Shown piece after piece: positions 1,305 through 9,597 of a stretch of DNA of 9,944 nt. The translations under genes and the position numbers were made by a program. How positions within the stretch are numbered: position 1 is the stretch's first letter; each line of letters starts with the position of its first letter. The notes under the pieces were generated by a model, which saw nothing but the letters and a program-made list of their open reading frames with translations, did no database searches and had not been told where the DNA came from. The stretch is from an uncultured Chryseolinea sp. (GTDB lineage Bacteria; Bacteroidota; Bacteroidia; Cytophagales; Cyclobacteriaceae), in contig CAMLER010000139.1 in assembly GCA_946478915.1 (NCBI GenBank), positions 1 to 9,944 on the forward strand. Direction: 5' to 3'.

Positions 1305-2471
1305 CTAGTTGGTCATCATTGACTTTTGAGCGTCATCCGGCCACTTCATTTCAACAGTTTCAATTTTTGAATCCGGCGTCAACGATGCTGTTCCTATTAC
1401 CGCTACCTTTTCTCCCTTCTTTAAACCTTTCGTTATTATCCAGGCGTCTCCAATCTTTGCTCCCGTTTCAACAATGTTTATTTTCAAGGTGCTGGAATCT
1501 GTTACCGTGAATACTTGTGCTAAGTTTTGCAATTGAACTACCGATCTTTGCGGCACCAGTACAGCGTTCGGATAGGTACTTAACAAAATGCGCGCTTTGA
1601 CAAATAAACCGGGACGCAACAGTTCTTGGGGATTGGGGAAACGTGCCTCTATAGTTAACGTCCCTGTTTTGGGATCGATTTCGCGATCGGCGAAGTTGAC
1701 CTCTCCTCTTTCACTATACAATGAGCCGTCGGCCAGAATAAGTTGAACATTTTTTTTAGCCGAATTCAATTCTTCTTTTGTCAGTCGGGCAATGCGCAAA
1801 TATTCCCGCTCGCTAATTTGAAATCGAATTCTAACGTTATCGATACTGGAAATCGTGGTGAGCACGGACGATGCCCCGGCGCGGCTTATATAGTCACCAA
1901 CCCTAACGTTAGAGATACCAACAATTCCATCAAATGGTGCATACACGCGGGTATACCCAAATTCAATTCTGGCATTTCGAAGCGATGCCTCTGAAGCATG
2001 GACTTGTGCTTGTGCTGCGTCAAACGCGGCGACTGCGTTGTCAAGATCTTTTTGGCTGAGCGCGTTAAGTTCAGTCAGAGGCTTAACCCTCCCCAGTTCA
2101 TTTTGTGCACGAACAAACTCTGTCTTAGCACGCGCGAGCTCATTGGCTTCACGGTCCACCCGAGTTTGGTATTGAGCATCATCGATAATATAAAGCTGGT
2201 CACCCTTTCTAACACGAGAACCTTCTTTAAAATTGACAGCAGTTACCCATCCCTCAACCCTCGATCGAATGTCTACGTCAGATTCGCCGTACACCTGTGC
2301 TACAAATTCTTCGTAAAGTGGAACATCATTTTCAACCGCCTTCACTACGTTCACTTTAACTGCCGCTATGCCTCCTGCCTCATTATTTTTTCTACAGGAC
2401 GCAGCTACAAGTACCACGGAAAGAATCAGTAAAACATTTTGTAGGCCGACGGTATTTCCATAAAGTTTCAT
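1305..2471 (-). CDS. RND efflux periplasmic adaptor (membrane fusion protein, AcrA/MexA-like lipoprotein)
   Basis: This 388-residue protein has the full adaptor length. The N-terminus has a hydrophobic stretch (about 12-24) ending in VAASC, so Cys26 is a likely lipidation site that anchors the protein to a membrane. The domain order fits the HlyD/AcrA family: first membrane-proximal strand (about 38-60), first lipoyl half (about 65-98, with VEGWVTAVNFKEGSRVRKGD), alpha-hairpin (about 100-168, rich in Ala, Glu and Arg), second lipoyl half (about 170-205, YAPFDGIVG and VGDYI), beta-barrel (about 210-300) and C-terminal membrane-proximal domain (about 300-375, with VLVPQRSVV). Its role is to join the inner-membrane pump encoded just downstream to an outer-membrane channel. 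The start is preceded by TTACACT and has no Shine-Dalgarno sequence. A terminator upstream separates it from the preceding gene, so the operon probably has its own promoter in 2472-2740. I could not identify that promoter with confidence. Confidence 0.95.
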   Translation of the reverse strand: MKLYGNTVGLQNVLLILSVVLVAASCRKNNEAGGIAAVKVNVVKAVENDVPLYEEFVAQVYGESDVDIRSRVEGWVTAVNFKEGSRVRKGDQLYIIDDAQYQTRVDREANELARAKTEFVRAQNELGRVKPLTELNALSQKDLDNAVAAFDAAQAQVHASEASLRNARIEFGYTRVYAPFDGIVGISNVRVGDYISRAGASSVLTTISSIDNVRIRFQISEREYLRIARLTKEELNSAKKNVQLILADGSLYSERGEVNFADREIDPKTGTLTIEARFPNPQELLRPGLFVKARILLSTYPNAVLVPQRSVVQLQNLAQVFTVTDSSTLKINIVETGAKIGDAWIITKGLKKGEKVAVIGTASLTPDSKIETVEMKWPDDAQKSMMTN

Positions 2472-2795: not shown

Positions 2796-3284
2796 CTAAT
2801 TTTTAACCAATACACTAACCGGAGCAGCAACTTTATTTTTCTTTGGTTTATCGTTCAAAAATTTGTAGAAAAATAACTTTATAGTTTCATGATCTGTCGT
2901 ATATGCTGTAACGCTCATGCCATCCGTAATAACGATGGCTGCATCTGACGTCTTTGCCGCTACAGAGGTTGGATCAAGCTTCAACCCAGTATCTGCTAAC
3001 GTTTCATAAGTACCATCCTCTTTGGCAATGTAAACAGGGAGTTTCAGTTTTCCATTTTCCACATCGACTTTTCCAACAAAACATTGACTGTAGCCGTCTT
3101 TGCGGATCGAAATAATGATCTCCTGTGTTCCATCAGGAATCGGTTTGGCACCACGCTCTCTGAATATTGTGTACCATTCACCATAACAATCCTTACTCGG
3201 CGAGGGAGGTTTGGTTTGCGACAATACAGGCGACGTGAGCAACAGCAGAACCATAGCTATCAAAGATTTTTTAAATTTTAACAT
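2796..3284 (-). CDS. Small secreted protein of unknown function
   Basis: I do not recognise this 162-residue protein. It has a clear signal peptide: MLKFKK, a hydrophobic core (about 8-21), and likely cleavage at VLS|Q after Ser22. The mature part begins with a Pro/Lys/Ser linker (about 23-31) and then a domain of about 110 residues predicted to be mostly beta-strand, with alternating hydrophobic residues (QEIIISIRKDG, KLKLPVYIA, AAIVITDG). It has two Cys, 33 and 68, which could form a disulfide after export. The C-terminus is Lys-rich. The frame can be extended to an ATG at 3317, but that would put 11 extra residues before the signal peptide. The ATG at 3284 shares the upstream sequence TTACACT with the adaptor gene and is preferred. 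It has its own terminator and lies downstream of the glycoside hydrolase gene with a 172-bp gap, so it is probably transcribed alone. Export to the periplasm or beyond is inferred; the role is unknown. Confidence 0.8.
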   Translation of the reverse strand: MLKFKKSLIAMVLLLLTSPVLSQTKPPSPSKDCYGEWYTIFRERGAKPIPDGTQEIIISIRKDGYSQCFVGKVDVENGKLKLPVYIAKEDGTYETLADTGLKLDPTSVAAKTSDAAIVITDGMSVTAYTTDHETIKLFFYKFLNDKPKKNKVAAPVSVLVKN

Positions 3285-3299
3285 AGTGTAAAAGTGTAA
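3285..3299 (-). promoter_or_regulatory. Tandem TTACACT repeat in front of the secreted-protein start
   Basis: On the minus strand the ATG at 3284 is directly preceded by TTACACTTTTACACT, a tandem pair of (T)TACACT units. The adaptor gene start at 2471 is also directly preceded by TTACACT, so both genes share the 10-mer TTACACTATG. It sits where a ribosome binding site would be but is not Shine-Dalgarno-like. This may be a lineage-specific initiation context or chance. It supports choosing 3284 over 3317 as the start. Confidence 0.3.
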
Positions 3300-3456
3300 G
3301 TTAAATATCAAGGACATTGAATTAAATCACGAATTTGAATTGTTATTGGACTTGGTGAATCCACTTTATTTGCAACGCTCATATCTTTCACTTGTAGGCG
3401 TCGTTCCTCCAGTCGATTTGTTTTTATCTTCGTGCCCGCCCTCCGTGTCATGACAT

Positions 3457-6222
3457 TTAGTTTAGCGTTTCCAGTGTCTCTTTCCTTATGTTTTCGACTT
3501 TTATTGTTTCGAATTCAGGAGCAAATGCAGCCTTCTTCCCAATTGCAAGAGCCTCGTCGGGATCGAGCGAGCCATAAAGATGAATGAGCTTTGCAACTAC
3601 ACCAGTCCAACCTGTTTGGTGACTTGCCCCAAGCCCGGCACCATTGTCGCCATGGAAGTACTCGTAAAAAAGAATGTTGTCAGACCAATGTGGATCTGTC
3701 TGAAATTTCTCCGACCCACCGAACACTGGACGCCGGCCATTTTCATCTCGAATGAAGATCCGCGTCAACCGGTCAGCGATTTCCTTACTGACCTCAAAGA
3801 GGTTCATCATGTTACCAGATCCGGTCGGGCATTCGATCTTGAAGTTATCACCATGGTACAGATAGAAATCCTGAAGCGCCCGGATGATCAGTGTGTTTAT
3901 CGGAAACCACACTGGTCCTCTCCAGTTCGAGTTGCCACCAAACATTCCGGTGTCGGATTCAGCCGGCAAATAGCCCACCCGATACTCCTGACCACCGGCA
4001 TGCAAAACGTAAGGATTTTGCTCGTGAAATTTGGAGATAGAGCGAATTCCATAGGGACCGAGGAATTCGTTCTCGTCAAGCATCTTCGTGAGCACGCGAC
4101 GAAGCCGCTCTGGATTAACAAGAGCAAGTATTCCCCGTTCTGCTACGCCTAAGTGCCCCGGCCCGGTAGGGTGAATAGTTTGCATTAGGTGCGGCATCCG
4201 GCGCATGCGTTCTTCTATCGCGGCCATTGCGCTGGGCACCACATCCCGCTGTTTTCTCTCAATTATTGTAGTAGCACATAGTGGCAGTAACCCCACTAAA
4301 GAACGCACCTTGAGTCGCGTGGCATTGCCATCCGGTAACCTCAGCAGATCGTAATAAAATCCATCTTCCTCATCCCACATACCGTCTTGACCTGCTCGGT
4401 TCATGGCAGAGGCGATATAACAGAAATGCTCAACGAATTTAACCACCATCTCCTCATAGACTTTGTCATATGCAGCCAGTTCAACTGCAAGTTCCAGCAT
4501 ATTTTGGCTAAACAATGCCATCCATGATGTGCCGTCTGCCTGTTCGAGATGGCCGCCAGTCGGAAGTGGAGCGCTACGGTCGAACACACCAATGTTGTCA
4601 AGTCCGAGGAAGCCACCCTCAAACACATTCTTACCAAACTTATCTTTGCGATTTACCCACCATGTAAAATTCAGCAGGAGTTTGTTAAATGCCTTTTTAA
4701 GAAAATCGATGTCAGGTTGACCGCTCAGCGCTTGCTCTGTACGATGCAGGAACAGCGTGGCAAAAGCGTGGACAGGCGGGTTTACATCACTAAAGTTCCA
4801 TTCATACGCTGGCATTTGGCCACTGGGATGAAGATATCTATGCAGAACCATGAGCTTCAATTGATCCTTGGCGAAGTCTGGGTCGACGATCATGATGGGT
4901 ATCGTATGAAAAGCCAAGTCCCATGCCGCGTACCATGGATATTCCCATTTATCTGGCATCGAAATAATATCTTCATTGAGCATATGGTACCAATCCGAGT
5001 TCCTGGAGTTACGGTAACCAGTATGCAATGGATTAGAGTTGTGTTCATCCAGCCAACTGTTACCGTCGAAGAAAAAATACTGCTTGCTCCAAAGCATGCC
5101 GGCAATAGCCTGGCGCATCACGTCAGCTGTATCTTTACTCACAGATGCAGGTGTTACGGACCTGTAAAAGTCATTGGCTTCACGAATCCTTTCAGAAAAG
5201 GTCTCATGAAATTGCTTTCCAAAAGCATTGCCCTTTGAACCGTTGGAACCGTTGGAAAGTCTAACGCATACCTCTGAACTTTTGCCTGCTTCTATTGACA
5301 AAAGATAGTGGGCCGCAACTTTGGTTCCCTTTTTTGCCGGGTTGACTGCGGCCTTAGATCCATTTATTATAAAATCATTAATCCCATCCTTGACAAAAGG
5401 ACTTTCATTTTTCTCACCTGGGAATAGCCGCTCATGATTGGTTTCGTTTTCGGTAAACAGTAGCGGTACCGTGCCTTCACAGGAAAAAATAAAGTTACCC
5501 AGCTTTGTATGTGCAGCTTCTACAATACTGTTGTTTGCTTTGGTATTGACTTGAGCGAGACTTGGCTTGCTGGCTGCTCTATGCGGCTCTGCTATCCACG
5601 ATGACCAGTCATTCCGGAACCAGAGTGTGGGCAGTATATGAAGTTCTGCTGTGTCCGGTCCCCTGTTGATCGCGGTGATCTTGACCAGGATATCTTCAGG
5701 TGCTGCTTTGGCGTACTCTATAAAAATGTCAAAGTAGCGGTCTTGATCAAAGATGCCAGTATCAAGCAACTCATATTCCATCTGCTGACGTGTACGCTGA
5801 GCATTTTTTTGAACAAGATCACTGTATGGATACGCGGCCTGCGGATATTTGTAAAGACATTTCATATAGGAATGCGTTGGCGTACTGTCGAGGTAGAAAT
5901 AGTACTCCTTAACGTCTTCGCCATGATTACCCTCAGCGTTCGTCAATCCAAAGAATCGCTCTTTAAGAATAGGGTCATTGCCATTCCAAAAAGCCAAGGC
6001 AAAACAAAGCAACTGCTTCTCATCAGAGATCCCGGCAATACCATCCTCACCCCAACGGTATGCGCGCGATCGCGCATGATCATGGGTGAAAAAATTCCAT
6101 GCATCACCGTTCTCACTATAGTCCTCCCGGACAGTTCCCCACTGACGATCACTTAAATAAGGTCCCCACTTTTTCCAGGGAGCTGTTTGTTCTCGCGCTT
6201 CCCTTAATCTTCGATTTTCCAT
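3457..6222 (-). CDS. Large GH63/MGH1-like glycoside hydrolase (putative glucosidase)
   Basis: The protein has 921 residues and no signal peptide (it starts MENRRLREAREQTAPWKKWG), so it is probably cytoplasmic. The N-terminal part (about 20-350) looks like a beta-rich domain. From about 360 to 890 it resembles the (alpha/alpha)6 barrel of clan GH-G (GH63 alpha-glucosidases and mannosylglycerate hydrolases). Landmarks are YPWYAAWDLAFHTIPIM (about 428-444), EWNFSDVNPPVHA (474-486), NSNWRGPVWFPIN (764-776) and FYEYFHGDNGAG (852-863), then a Trp-rich end (GWTGVVAKLI). By rough analogy with GH63 enzymes, Asp479 is my candidate general acid and Glu854 my candidate base; neither was checked by alignment. 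Proteins of this size are commonly annotated as glucosidase in bacteria, and a related uncharacterised protein exists in yeast. The substrate is unknown; an intracellular alpha-glucoside or compatible solute is possible. No sugar transporter or regulator lies beside it. Residues 323-332 (SNGSNGSKGN) come from a short DNA duplication. Confidence 0.85.
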   Translation of the reverse strand: MENRRLREAREQTAPWKKWGPYLSDRQWGTVREDYSENGDAWNFFTHDHARSRAYRWGEDGIAGISDEKQLLCFALAFWNGNDPILKERFFGLTNAEGNHGEDVKEYYFYLDSTPTHSYMKCLYKYPQAAYPYSDLVQKNAQRTRQQMEYELLDTGIFDQDRYFDIFIEYAKAAPEDILVKITAINRGPDTAELHILPTLWFRNDWSSWIAEPHRAASKPSLAQVNTKANNSIVEAAHTKLGNFIFSCEGTVPLLFTENETNHERLFPGEKNESPFVKDGINDFIINGSKAAVNPAKKGTKVAAHYLLSIEAGKSSEVCVRLSNGSNGSKGNAFGKQFHETFSERIREANDFYRSVTPASVSKDTADVMRQAIAGMLWSKQYFFFDGNSWLDEHNSNPLHTGYRNSRNSDWYHMLNEDIISMPDKWEYPWYAAWDLAFHTIPIMIVDPDFAKDQLKLMVLHRYLHPSGQMPAYEWNFSDVNPPVHAFATLFLHRTEQALSGQPDIDFLKKAFNKLLLNFTWWVNRKDKFGKNVFEGGFLGLDNIGVFDRSAPLPTGGHLEQADGTSWMALFSQNMLELAVELAAYDKVYEEMVVKFVEHFCYIASAMNRAGQDGMWDEEDGFYYDLLRLPDGNATRLKVRSLVGLLPLCATTIIERKQRDVVPSAMAAIEERMRRMPHLMQTIHPTGPGHLGVAERGILALVNPERLRRVLTKMLDENEFLGPYGIRSISKFHEQNPYVLHAGGQEYRVGYLPAESDTGMFGGNSNWRGPVWFPINTLIIRALQDFYLYHGDNFKIECPTGSGNMMNLFEVSKEIADRLTRIFIRDENGRRPVFGGSEKFQTDPHWSDNILFYEYFHGDNGAGLGASHQTGWTGVVAKLIHLYGSLDPDEALAIGKKAAFAPEFETIKVENIRKETLETLN

Positions 6223-6746: not shown

Positions 6747-8333
6747 ATGGAATCAGATAAACCTCTTATTAACCGTACGGAATTCACTTTCGAAAAAATA
6801 GTGGATACAATGATTCGGCTTGCCATTCTATTTTTCTTGGCGGGATGGTGTGTAACCATATTGCGACCGTTTTTTTTGATTTTGATTTGGGCCGCTGTAA
6901 TCGCAATTGCCATTTATCCATTGTACCGTGTTTTTATAGTGATCTTCCGCAATCGGAGGAGTTGGGCGGCCGTGGTACTAACCATTTTAATGCTGGCTGT
7001 GTTAGTAATTCCTAGTTGGCTGGTGCTCGATGCTTCACTTGACGAAGTGCGTCATTTACGCGACCTTAATGATCAGGGAAGACTTGTCATTCCACCTCCC
7101 GGTGAACGCACTGACAATTGGCCCAGAATTATGAAACCTATTATTGATTTTTGGTCGCTTGCTTCCGGGAATTTACAATCTGCAGTGGTGAAGTATTCCG
7201 ACCAGTTAAAAGTTGTAGGCGCTTGGTTGCTTTCGACAGCGGCCGGGTTTGGAAAAGGGATCCTGCAATTTGTCGTGTCGATGATAATTGCCGGTATATT
7301 ACTTGCGTACTCCGCTACCGTTGGAAACGCAGCTACTGGAATTTTTGTAAAGTTAGCCGGGAAAAATGGGGAAACCTTTGCAGACACCATTGTTACTACA
7401 GTTCGCAGTGTTGTAAAAGGTATTTTGGGTGTTGCTGTGATTCAAGCGGTGATGGCTGGAACAGGTTTTTTTATTGCAGGAGTTCCATATGCAGGTCTTT
7501 GGACAGTAGCTAGCTTGTTCTTTGCGATAATTCAGATCGGCGCAGGTCCGGTGGCGATTCCGGTAATGATTTATATGTTCTCCGCTACGGATACTTTAAC
7601 TGCTGTTTTGCTTGCCATCTGGTTAGTCATTACTCTTATATCGGATAACATATTAAAACCGCTCTTGTTAGGTCGTGGCGCGCCAGCACCTATGCTGGTC
7701 GTTTTTTTGGGAGCAATCGGAGGATTCATTGCCAACGGTTTCCTCGGATTGTTCTTGGGGGCTGTTATACTAACGATCGGATATAAGCTTTTTAGCCTTT
7801 GGTTAAATACCCCTTCACAATTTGATGTGGCTGGTGCCACCCAGAAAATAAAGGATGTACGGGTCCTAATAGTGCCAGCTGTAATGACATTAATGTTTTC
7901 GTGCAACACGAAGATGGACGAACACAAAGTAATTGCCATTGACAAGGTAGAACTAAAAAAAGCGATCCAAACAAAGGAAGATGAATTTGCTGCAACCTAT
8001 AATTCAGGAGAACTTAAAAATATTGGTTACTATGCGGAGGATGCTATATCCTTTTCTCAAAATAAACCTCCTCTTGTAGGCAAGGCTGCAATTATAGAAT
8101 TTTTGAAAGAAGGGATTGAATCTTCCACTAACGGAAATAAGATTTCATTTACCACCAATGAAGTTTTCGTTTCAAGTGATGGTCATCAGGTTGTTGAAAT
8201 CGGTTATTACAAATTAGTTGACTCAACTAATGTCGAGATCAATACAGGGAACTATATGGTTTTGTTTGAAAAAAGAGACGGAAAGTATGTCGTTGTAAGA
8301 GATATGAGTGCTTCGGACATGCCACTTGAATAA
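6747..8333 (+). CDS. AI-2E/PerM-family transporter fused to a lipoprotein-like NTF2/SnoaL-type domain
   Basis: This 528-residue protein has two parts. Residues about 1-357 match the AI-2E transporter family (PerM/TqsA, formerly UPF0118). They contain paired N-terminal helices (about 22-64 and 72-95), a soluble loop, a helix at about 158-192, and the conserved C-terminal helices with GVPYAGLW, IPVMIYMF, SDNILKPLLLGRG and GFLGLFLGAVILTIGYKLF. Family members export autoinducer-2 or act as Na+/H+ antiporters; the substrate here is unknown. Residues about 390-528 resemble a DUF4440/SnoaL-like NTF2 fold (LKKAIQTKEDEFAATYNSGE, PPLVGKAAIIEFL, GNYMVLFEKRDGKYVVVRDM). Between them, KIKDVRVLIVPAVMTLMFSC has the form of a lipoprotein signal peptide with Cys386 as the lipidation site. 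The typical family length is about 350, so the tail is an addition. The frame is unbroken through the junction. A GTG at 7827 could start the lipoprotein separately. The gene stands alone on the plus strand, without a Shine-Dalgarno sequence, and converges on the next gene. Confidence 0.85.
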   Translation: MESDKPLINRTEFTFEKIVDTMIRLAILFFLAGWCVTILRPFFLILIWAAVIAIAIYPLYRVFIVIFRNRRSWAAVVLTILMLAVLVIPSWLVLDASLDEVRHLRDLNDQGRLVIPPPGERTDNWPRIMKPIIDFWSLASGNLQSAVVKYSDQLKVVGAWLLSTAAGFGKGILQFVVSMIIAGILLAYSATVGNAATGIFVKLAGKNGETFADTIVTTVRSVVKGILGVAVIQAVMAGTGFFIAGVPYAGLWTVASLFFAIIQIGAGPVAIPVMIYMFSATDTLTAVLLAIWLVITLISDNILKPLLLGRGAPAPMLVVFLGAIGGFIANGFLGLFLGAVILTIGYKLFSLWLNTPSQFDVAGATQKIKDVRVLIVPAVMTLMFSCNTKMDEHKVIAIDKVELKKAIQTKEDEFAATYNSGELKNIGYYAEDAISFSQNKPPLVGKAAIIEFLKEGIESSTNGNKISFTTNEVFVSSDGHQVVEIGYYKLVDSTNVEINTGNYMVLFEKRDGKYVVVRDMSASDMPLE

Positions 8334-8472: not shown

Positions 8473-9597
8473 CTAACGCCTTCTACCGCCCGCTCCCCTG
8501 GATCCACCGCCACTAAAACCACCACTTCCTTTGAAACTTCCTGAACTGCGATAGCGGGATGCCCCGGATGAACCTGACCTGGAATGTTGTGACGAATATC
8601 CAGATGACGAACGAGATGATGTTGACCCCACCGTTGACTGACGGTCTGTACGTGATGATGCGTCCGGCTGGCGTACTACAGGAGACTGAGTTGCTGATGG
8701 TCGGTTTGATTGCCGCGTTGAGGATCCCGGCGAGGGACGTGTTGATGCGTTAGCTGACCGATCCCTTGCCGGTGTTGTCGATGGACGTGTTGCAGACGAA
8801 TTGCCCCTATTGTAGTTGCCGCTAGCTTTATGATGATTGACAGTATTTGATCTGTTTCTCGAATTATTGTAATTGTTAAAATTGTTGCTATTATGGATTA
8901 TTGTTGTGTTTCCATGATACCCATAACCATGGTGGTGATAGGAATGATGACCTATGTACATACCCACCGCCATCACGGTAAACGCTGCAAAATATGGCGG
9001 ATAATATCCGTAATAATAAGGGGGATGATAGGGAACATAAGCAGGCGAATAAACATATTGAACAATGGGTGTAGATTCAACCACTACAACTGTGGTCTTA
9101 GCCGGCGCACTGACAACGACAGTATCATTTCCTGTGTACCCTGGGTTAGCTGTCACGGCAGGAGTTTTAGACTCCTTGAGTTCTACAATGTAATCTTTAC
9201 CATACAAATCGCTATCACCTACAATTTGCATTGTGATTTTTTTAGCTTCGTCCTTTGACACTAAAATAACTGCGACATCCTGGGTTTCAGTTTTGCTGAC
9301 AGCAACTTGAAGAACAAATGTAAAATCGTCTCCATCACTATTTGTTACAACTTTTATAAAATCGACCTTATTATCCAGATCTAAATCCAGGTTATTGACG
9401 CCTGTAGCCTCAAGATTTAACGATTTTTCAAACTCCTCTATGGTCTTTGATTTTTGGAATAGATCTAATACAGCATATAGATCAAGGTTATCTCCAGGTA
9501 AGCCTAATAATGTTGAGTCCTTTTCTGTTTGACTAAAGACTTGCAGGTGTACTAAACTTATAGCCACCGCTAAAACGGGAATAATGTGATTTTTCAT
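8473..9597 (-). CDS. Secreted protein with acidic Asp loop, His/Tyr-rich segment and Ser/Arg/Gly-rich tail
   Basis: The protein has 374 residues and no function I can name. The signal peptide (about 1-22) ends VFS|Q. Residues about 30-140 form a compact domain beginning LLGLPGDNLDLYAVLDLF. It includes DLDLDNKVD (Asp71, 73, 75 and 79), a DxDxD loop like calcium-binding loops of EF-hand or dockerin type, followed by a strand-rich part (FTFVLQVAV, DVAVILVS). Similar N-terminal domains occur in uncharacterised Bacteroidota proteins, as far as I recall. Residues 180-203 are Tyr/Pro-rich and 204-216 (AAFTVMAVGMYIG) may be a membrane helix or a hydrophobic strand. Then follow a His/Gly patch (217-229), an Asn-rich stretch (236-263) and about 100 residues dominated by Ser, Arg, Thr and Gly ending GAGGRRR. 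The tail is probably disordered and strongly basic, suited to binding polyanions such as polysaccharide or DNA (inference). It is monocistronic in this window. Confidence 0.8.
   Translation of the reverse strand: MKNHIIPVLAVAISLVHLQVFSQTEKDSTLLGLPGDNLDLYAVLDLFQKSKTIEEFEKSLNLEATGVNNLDLDLDNKVDFIKVVTNSDGDDFTFVLQVAVSKTETQDVAVILVSKDEAKKITMQIVGDSDLYGKDYIVELKESKTPAVTANPGYTGNDTVVVSAPAKTTVVVVESTPIVQYVYSPAYVPYHPPYYYGYYPPYFAAFTVMAVGMYIGHHSYHHHGYGYHGNTTIIHNSNNFNNYNNSRNRSNTVNHHKASGNYNRGNSSATRPSTTPARDRSANASTRPSPGSSTRQSNRPSATQSPVVRQPDASSRTDRQSTVGSTSSRSSSGYSSQHSRSGSSGASRYRSSGSFKGSGGFSGGGSRGAGGRRR

Follow-up and report, generated by a model that had tools for sequence, protein, structure and literature searches.

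Among transporters of the AI-2E family, the nearest solved structure to the protein described here is that of E. coli YdiK (PDB 7ot9), with which residues 24-354 align in a phmmer search (E 6.2e-38). For a distant member of the family, from Halobacillus, PhoA fusions placed the C terminus in the periplasm (PMC7221264). As regards lipoproteins, C-X-K-(D/E)2 is given as a rule for surface export in C. canimorsus (PMC5080379); the CNTKMDE sequence of the lipoprotein considered below does not fit the rule in that form, and a surface-export signal was discarded as a reading. A literature search on AI-2E with DUF4440 found nothing, while those on internal lipoprotein signals and on AI-2E, fusion, lipoprotein or Chryseolinea gave no paper on the topic among those listed, as judged by titles and the beginnings of abstracts.

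The window analysed here is a stretch of 9,944 nucleotides from an uncultured Chryseolinea sp. In particular, an ORF check of its sequence confirmed the in-frame transporter-lipoprotein fusion that the original prediction had described, that is, a single uninterrupted frame of 528 codons at positions 6747-8333 of the + strand. On present evidence this frame is either a private fusion or an artefact.

Two complete proteins in one frame

The combined frame is made of two ordinary bacterial genes, one for a membrane transporter and one for a small lipoprotein, both of which are complete. Its parts, and the sequence elements around the place where they meet, are as follows.

6747..7844, + strand: AI-2E/YdiK-type transporter half, residues 1-366 (family matches, tail comparison)
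7827..7829, + strand: GTG codon 361, in frame, a possible internal start (start-codon scan)
7842..7853, + strand: junction, codon 366 lying in the start-Met column of the lipoprotein (alignment A1, spacing in relatives)
7842-7844, + strand: codon 366, CAG, for Q366 (sequence)
7845-7848, + strand: A run at the junction (sequence)
7849-7851, + strand: TAA in the +1 frame, just past the A run (sequence)
7845..7901, + strand: former lipoprotein signal peptide, residues 367-385, with the lipobox residues before Cys386 (alignment, hydropathy)
7902..8333, + strand: mature lipoprotein part, Cys386 to residue 528 plus stop, with the DUF4440/NTF2-like domain (Pfam, fold model)

The transporter half is recognized by the Pfam profile PF01594, which matches residues 26-349 with 123 bits versus a cut-off of 34.3 and over profile positions 4-323 of 327. 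Among the curated NCBIfam models YdiK (NF008216) is the nearest, with a score below the cut-off of that model. Several comparisons bear on where this protein would end. The best 120 of 2346 transporter matches are 299-394 aa long and, in the 114 of these 120 listed relatives that carry the YKLF motif, 2-27 residues follow it, most commonly 15; in the window there are 18, counted to K367. The relatives P0122 (81% identity) and P0123 (79%) terminate in LKTPEPEILALK and LNTPSSRSDVIGIAKN, respectively, the corresponding window sequence being LNTPSQFDVAGATQK, and the window tail NTPSQFDVAGATQK is similar to the end of P0123, NTPSSRSDVIGIAKN. In the closest relative for which DNA was compared, a Chryseolinea MAG (L001, 75% identity), the transporter has 370 aa and its own stop. 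The native tail of the transporter, to judge from these alignments, probably ends near residue 366-367.

The remainder of the frame, residues 367-528, makes up a Bacteroidota lipoprotein that is complete and contains a DUF4440/NTF2-like domain. Specifically, a charged n-region is followed by a hydrophobic stretch, the lipobox LMFSC and, according to domain matches, a DUF4440/SnoaL-like domain, and the model of this part adopts an NTF2-like cone fold. The lipobox Cys is invariant in alignments A1 (31 sequences) and A4 (34 sequences), and a script placed it in 116 of the 120 listed lipoprotein relatives, the remaining 4 being unscorable. These best 120 listed standalone relatives are 146-186 aa long. 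Exactly 20 residues precede the Cys in 99 of the 116 scorable ones, the same number that is obtained in the window when counting from Q366, and a K or R occupies position 2 in 88 of these 99, as does K367 in the window. The closest listed relative, P0002 (83% identity; 157 aa, on a 28,899-base contig), is an exception, with 14 residues ahead of the Cys; the usual MK n-region is missing at its predicted start as well. The best 19-residue hydropathy mean of the added segment is a modest 1.54, at 368-386. The domain boundaries originally drawn, the lipoprotein nature of the C-terminal part and its NTF2-like fold are borne out by Pfam, by the alignment of relatives and by the fold model, the similarity to lipoproteins and NTF2-like proteins having been found both as a DUF4440 match and among Bacteroidota lipoprotein relatives.

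In alignment A1, Q366 falls in the column of the start Met. A start Met at the N terminus proper to the lipoprotein is thus absent in the window, where that column is occupied by Q366 within a longer frame. Taken together with the length of the transporter tail, this indicates that a natural protein end has been joined to a natural protein start within a few codons. The region around the join is A-rich and, between 7771 and the n-region, the sole in-frame ATG, GTG or TTG is the GTG at 7827; the later in-frame starts at 7872, 7884 and 7893 lie 10, 6 and 3 residues before Cys386. The full-length structure model has a mean pLDDT of 65.2, which falls below 50 over residues 357-399, and the helix drawn at 358-385 lies inside this stretch. 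Being so poorly modelled at the junction, the composite protein is without structural support, and the model was discarded as junction evidence. In a Foldseek search with this weak model, 7ot9_A was the sole match at E <= 0.001 (E 1.3e-4, TM 0.63 by target length, rmsd 10.9).

Genome context and a conserved gene pair

The genes that flank the combined frame in the window, listed below, were compared with those of related genomes.

1305..2471, - strand: HlyD-type adaptor gene, in the transporter's block in relatives (family match, neighbourhood comparison)
2796..3317, - strand: 173-aa gene of the same transporter block (neighbourhood comparison)
3457-6222: 921-aa GH63/MGH1-like glycosidase gene, between the 173-aa gene and the transporter (domain match)
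8473..9597, - strand: 374-aa gene, in convergent orientation to the lipoprotein part; its place beside the lipoprotein gene is conserved in relatives (neighbourhood comparison)

Beside the HlyD-type gene lies a further gene (2-1288), which from its sequence we take to be of AcrB type. The transporter sits with the AcrB, HlyD and 173-aa genes in Chryseolinea soli (G137), in G536 and in the window alike, the first two being of the same genus as the L001 MAG; no counterpart of the 921-aa GH63/MGH1-like gene was seen in the regions of relatives compared. Likewise, in all three the lipoprotein gene is convergent to the 374-aa gene. The distance from the transporter block to the lipoprotein block is 356 kb in G536 and about 360 kb in G137, the latter counted across the ends of a contig of 8,241,389 bases taken as circular. 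Accordingly, the proposed check of whether relatives carry the same fusion or two adjacent genes gave neither: the genes are unfused and some 356-360 kb apart in G137 and G536. The window unites the two blocks at the fusion point, a picture that a rearrangement with loss of the gene boundary or a misjoin would both give.

In L001 a QEGLA-motif gene lies after the transporter, and searches of this MAG, which may be incomplete, found no lipoprotein and no 374-aa gene. The same QEGLA/MATCAP-type gene, presumably DUF1704, lies beside the lipoprotein in G137, its NCBIfam match being below the cut-off. A local deletion of this gene from between transporter and lipoprotein was considered and rejected, as one simple deletion would not account for the orientations of the genes. 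As for base composition, the window, G137 and G536 agree in that the GC3 of the lipoprotein and 374-aa genes is below that of the transporter gene and of the AcrB and HlyD genes; it is also below that of the 173-aa gene in the window and in G536, whereas in G137 this does not hold for the 374-aa gene. The composition agrees with a single genome as the source of both halves, and a cross-species chimera was rejected because no half appears foreign.

A result that is firmer than any reading of the fusion emerges from the same comparison: in Bacteroidota, the genes for the DUF4440 lipoprotein and for the 374-aa protein are conserved as a pair. Among genomes with close lipoprotein matches (E <= 1e-25; distant matches, at 38% identity and below, being left out), a homologue of the 374-aa gene lies within about 0.65 kb of the lipoprotein, convergent or in tandem, in seven out of seven (G137, G536, G549, G267, G173, G365, G458). 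In a draw of 395 genomes of the phylum, the same draw for both proteins by its handles, the 4 genomes with the lipoprotein (E <= 1e-25) are exactly the 4 with the 374-aa protein (E <= 1e-100). Weaker relatives of the latter (E 6.1e-54 to 1.7e-62) occur without the lipoprotein in 5 more of the 395, and the genus also holds weaker relatives. Of the 391 relatives of G001 searched, 3 have the lipoprotein at E <= 1e-25, with the 374-aa gene beside it in each. Neither Pfam nor NCBIfam gives a match to the 374-aa protein at E <= 0.001. In three further genomes (loci L076, L077, L078) the lipoprotein and 374-aa genes are separated by a small conserved gene (159 aa, fam19), with all of them running in the same direction. 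A useful by-product of the analysis is this conserved link between the lipoprotein family and an uncharacterised gene family.

Searches for the same combination

When residues 355-528 were compared with proteins of about 290-924 aa, a single match was obtained among 404 candidates, P0001. The transporter search also admitted proteins of about 290-924 aa, hence of fusion length, and 2346 of 7998 scored candidates passed the E-value limit. In 148 genomes from the family of G001, the transporter was present in 30, with 34 matches in open frames of 87-431 aa. No AI-2E-lipoprotein fusion was seen in the one fusion-length match, the 34 genome matches and the best 120 of 2346 transporter matches. The standalone-lipoprotein search, being restricted to short proteins, could not return longer ones and is silent on fusions. 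The window's own protein was not among the matches listed in the fusion-length, standalone-lipoprotein or transporter searches, so that no second reading of the same organism was found here. A joint alignment (A2) was left unused, since its invariant columns suggest that transporter tails were set against the lipoprotein domain. As far as these searches reach, the combination appears private to the window sequence. With no close relative found to have both parts joined, it looks less like a new kind of protein than like a sequencing artefact or a fusion that occurred once.

P0001 (311 aa, on a 1760-base contig) resembles the window in that a lipoprotein is extended in frame from an upstream gene. 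Unlike the window, it has a truncated IF-2 N terminus as its upstream part and a lipoprotein that has retained its start Met. Its first 145 or so residues match the start of a 938-1021-aa open frame, at 39-60% identity, in all four genomes searched, the open frame being identified as IF-2 in G267. The IF-2 gene is essential and P0001 truncates it; P0001 is therefore probably a chimera. It had suggested a mobile cassette, with the lipoprotein gene inserting into other genes, an idea that was dropped, as there is no plasmid or phage match and P0001 looks chimeric. Among 9 pattern-matched stretches of viral contigs, no relative was confirmed. A second fusion candidate came from G549, where an open frame of 283 codons surrounds the lipoprotein. 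At this locus (L087, 1498-2325, - strand) a 275-aa ORF contains the lipoprotein and extends upstream over the 374-aa gene in another frame. In view of this out-of-frame overlap and of a family-type start (MEKRLI...) within the ORF, the candidate was rejected and the ORF is probably a chance open frame.

Origin and possible fate of the combined frame

The explanation that we prefer, and to which we give an even chance, is a young and accidental in-frame gene fusion private to this lineage. Through a rearrangement, the lipoprotein/374-aa pair would have come to lie downstream of the AI-2E transporter gene. The transporter stop and the lipoprotein start would then have disappeared with a small deletion, or a change of frame, where the two genes meet in A-rich sequence, so that both proteins stayed whole in one frame. 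In its favour are the join at both gene ends, the unfused state of the relatives, a base composition of one genome and the integrity of both parts, unlike in P0001. Against it, the fusion occurs in one sequence only, without a second copy to check, and the two blocks are separated by about 356 kb in one related genome and by about 360 kb in another.

The main rival, quite conceivable if somewhat doubtful, is an assembly or sequence artefact: either the contig brings together two places of one genome, or the A-rich junction contains a small error that conceals the stop of one gene and the start of the next. A misjoin would give the picture observed, given the distance between the blocks in G137 and G536 that meet here, and the same lipoprotein family occurs in another odd join, that of P0001 with IF-2. 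The join of the window is nevertheless in frame, it falls at both gene ends and leaves the two proteins complete, and the base composition is without a foreign half. As to a local error, the TAA in the +1 frame lies just past the A run and a one-base error in this run would restore a transporter stop; yet in that frame the lipoprotein would still be without an ATG, GTG or TTG before its n-region. The original prediction had listed a recent fusion or an assembly error as its third option, and it is this option that fits best.

It is rather unlikely, albeit compatible with a real fusion, that the lipoprotein is also or mainly made alone from an internal start, such as the GTG at 7827. A lipoprotein started at this codon would carry K367, K369 and R372 in its n-region and have 25 residues ahead of Cys386, a length that departs from the 20 usual in the family; the starts at 7872, 7884 and 7893 would leave 10, 6 and 3 residues, respectively.

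Even less probable is that selection keeps the fusion as a precursor, possibly split by signal peptidase II, or as a tethered sensor, delivering or tying a periplasmic NTF2-like domain. The lipobox, Cys386, the n-region charges and the hydrophobic segment are all intact, but a very young fusion would show intact parts too. Moreover, no fused relative was found in the searches, and the conserved partner of the lipoprotein is the 374-aa gene rather than the transporter. The self-splitting precursor or tethered sensor originally put forward hence finds no comparative support, and no new function for the combined protein is indicated.

If the preferred young fusion is real and expressed, its product would be a full transporter, a positively charged linker and then the old signal sequence, which would become an extra membrane segment with the NTF2-like domain in the periplasm. 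The linker (346-373) has 4 K/R (K347, K367, K369 and R372) versus 2 D/E, and this net positive charge favours a cytoplasmic linker, with 368-386 spanning the membrane. The N-terminal stretch 1-26 has 4 K/R versus 5 D/E, and charge alone cannot place the N terminus inside. On the initial premise of an even number of transporter helices the evidence is divided: the linker charges favour the cytoplasmic side, whereas a periplasmic C terminus like that of the distant Halobacillus protein (PMC7221264) would make the added segment face the wrong way.

Lipidation and cutting at Cys386 by Lgt and signal peptidase II would be putative steps, for and against which the odds appear about even. A polytopic transporter with a working internal lipoprotein signal, that is, one chain whose last segment serves as signal anchor and which Lgt and signal peptidase II process at Cys386 into equal amounts of transporter and lipoprotein, seems very improbable. 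If the fusion were both real and processed, it would demonstrate that signal peptidase II is able to act on an internal signal sequence that comes after a polytopic membrane domain.

The YdiK structure 7ot9 is a chain of 370 residues, whereas the window frame carries about 162 residues more after the transporter. P0097 of Chryseolinea soli (G137), a YybH/NTF2-family lipoprotein of about 66% identity, shares the lipobox Cys and the convergent 374-aa neighbour; it has a Met of its own 20 residues ahead of the Cys, whereas in the window a CAG stands at that place and the frame runs upstream into the transporter.
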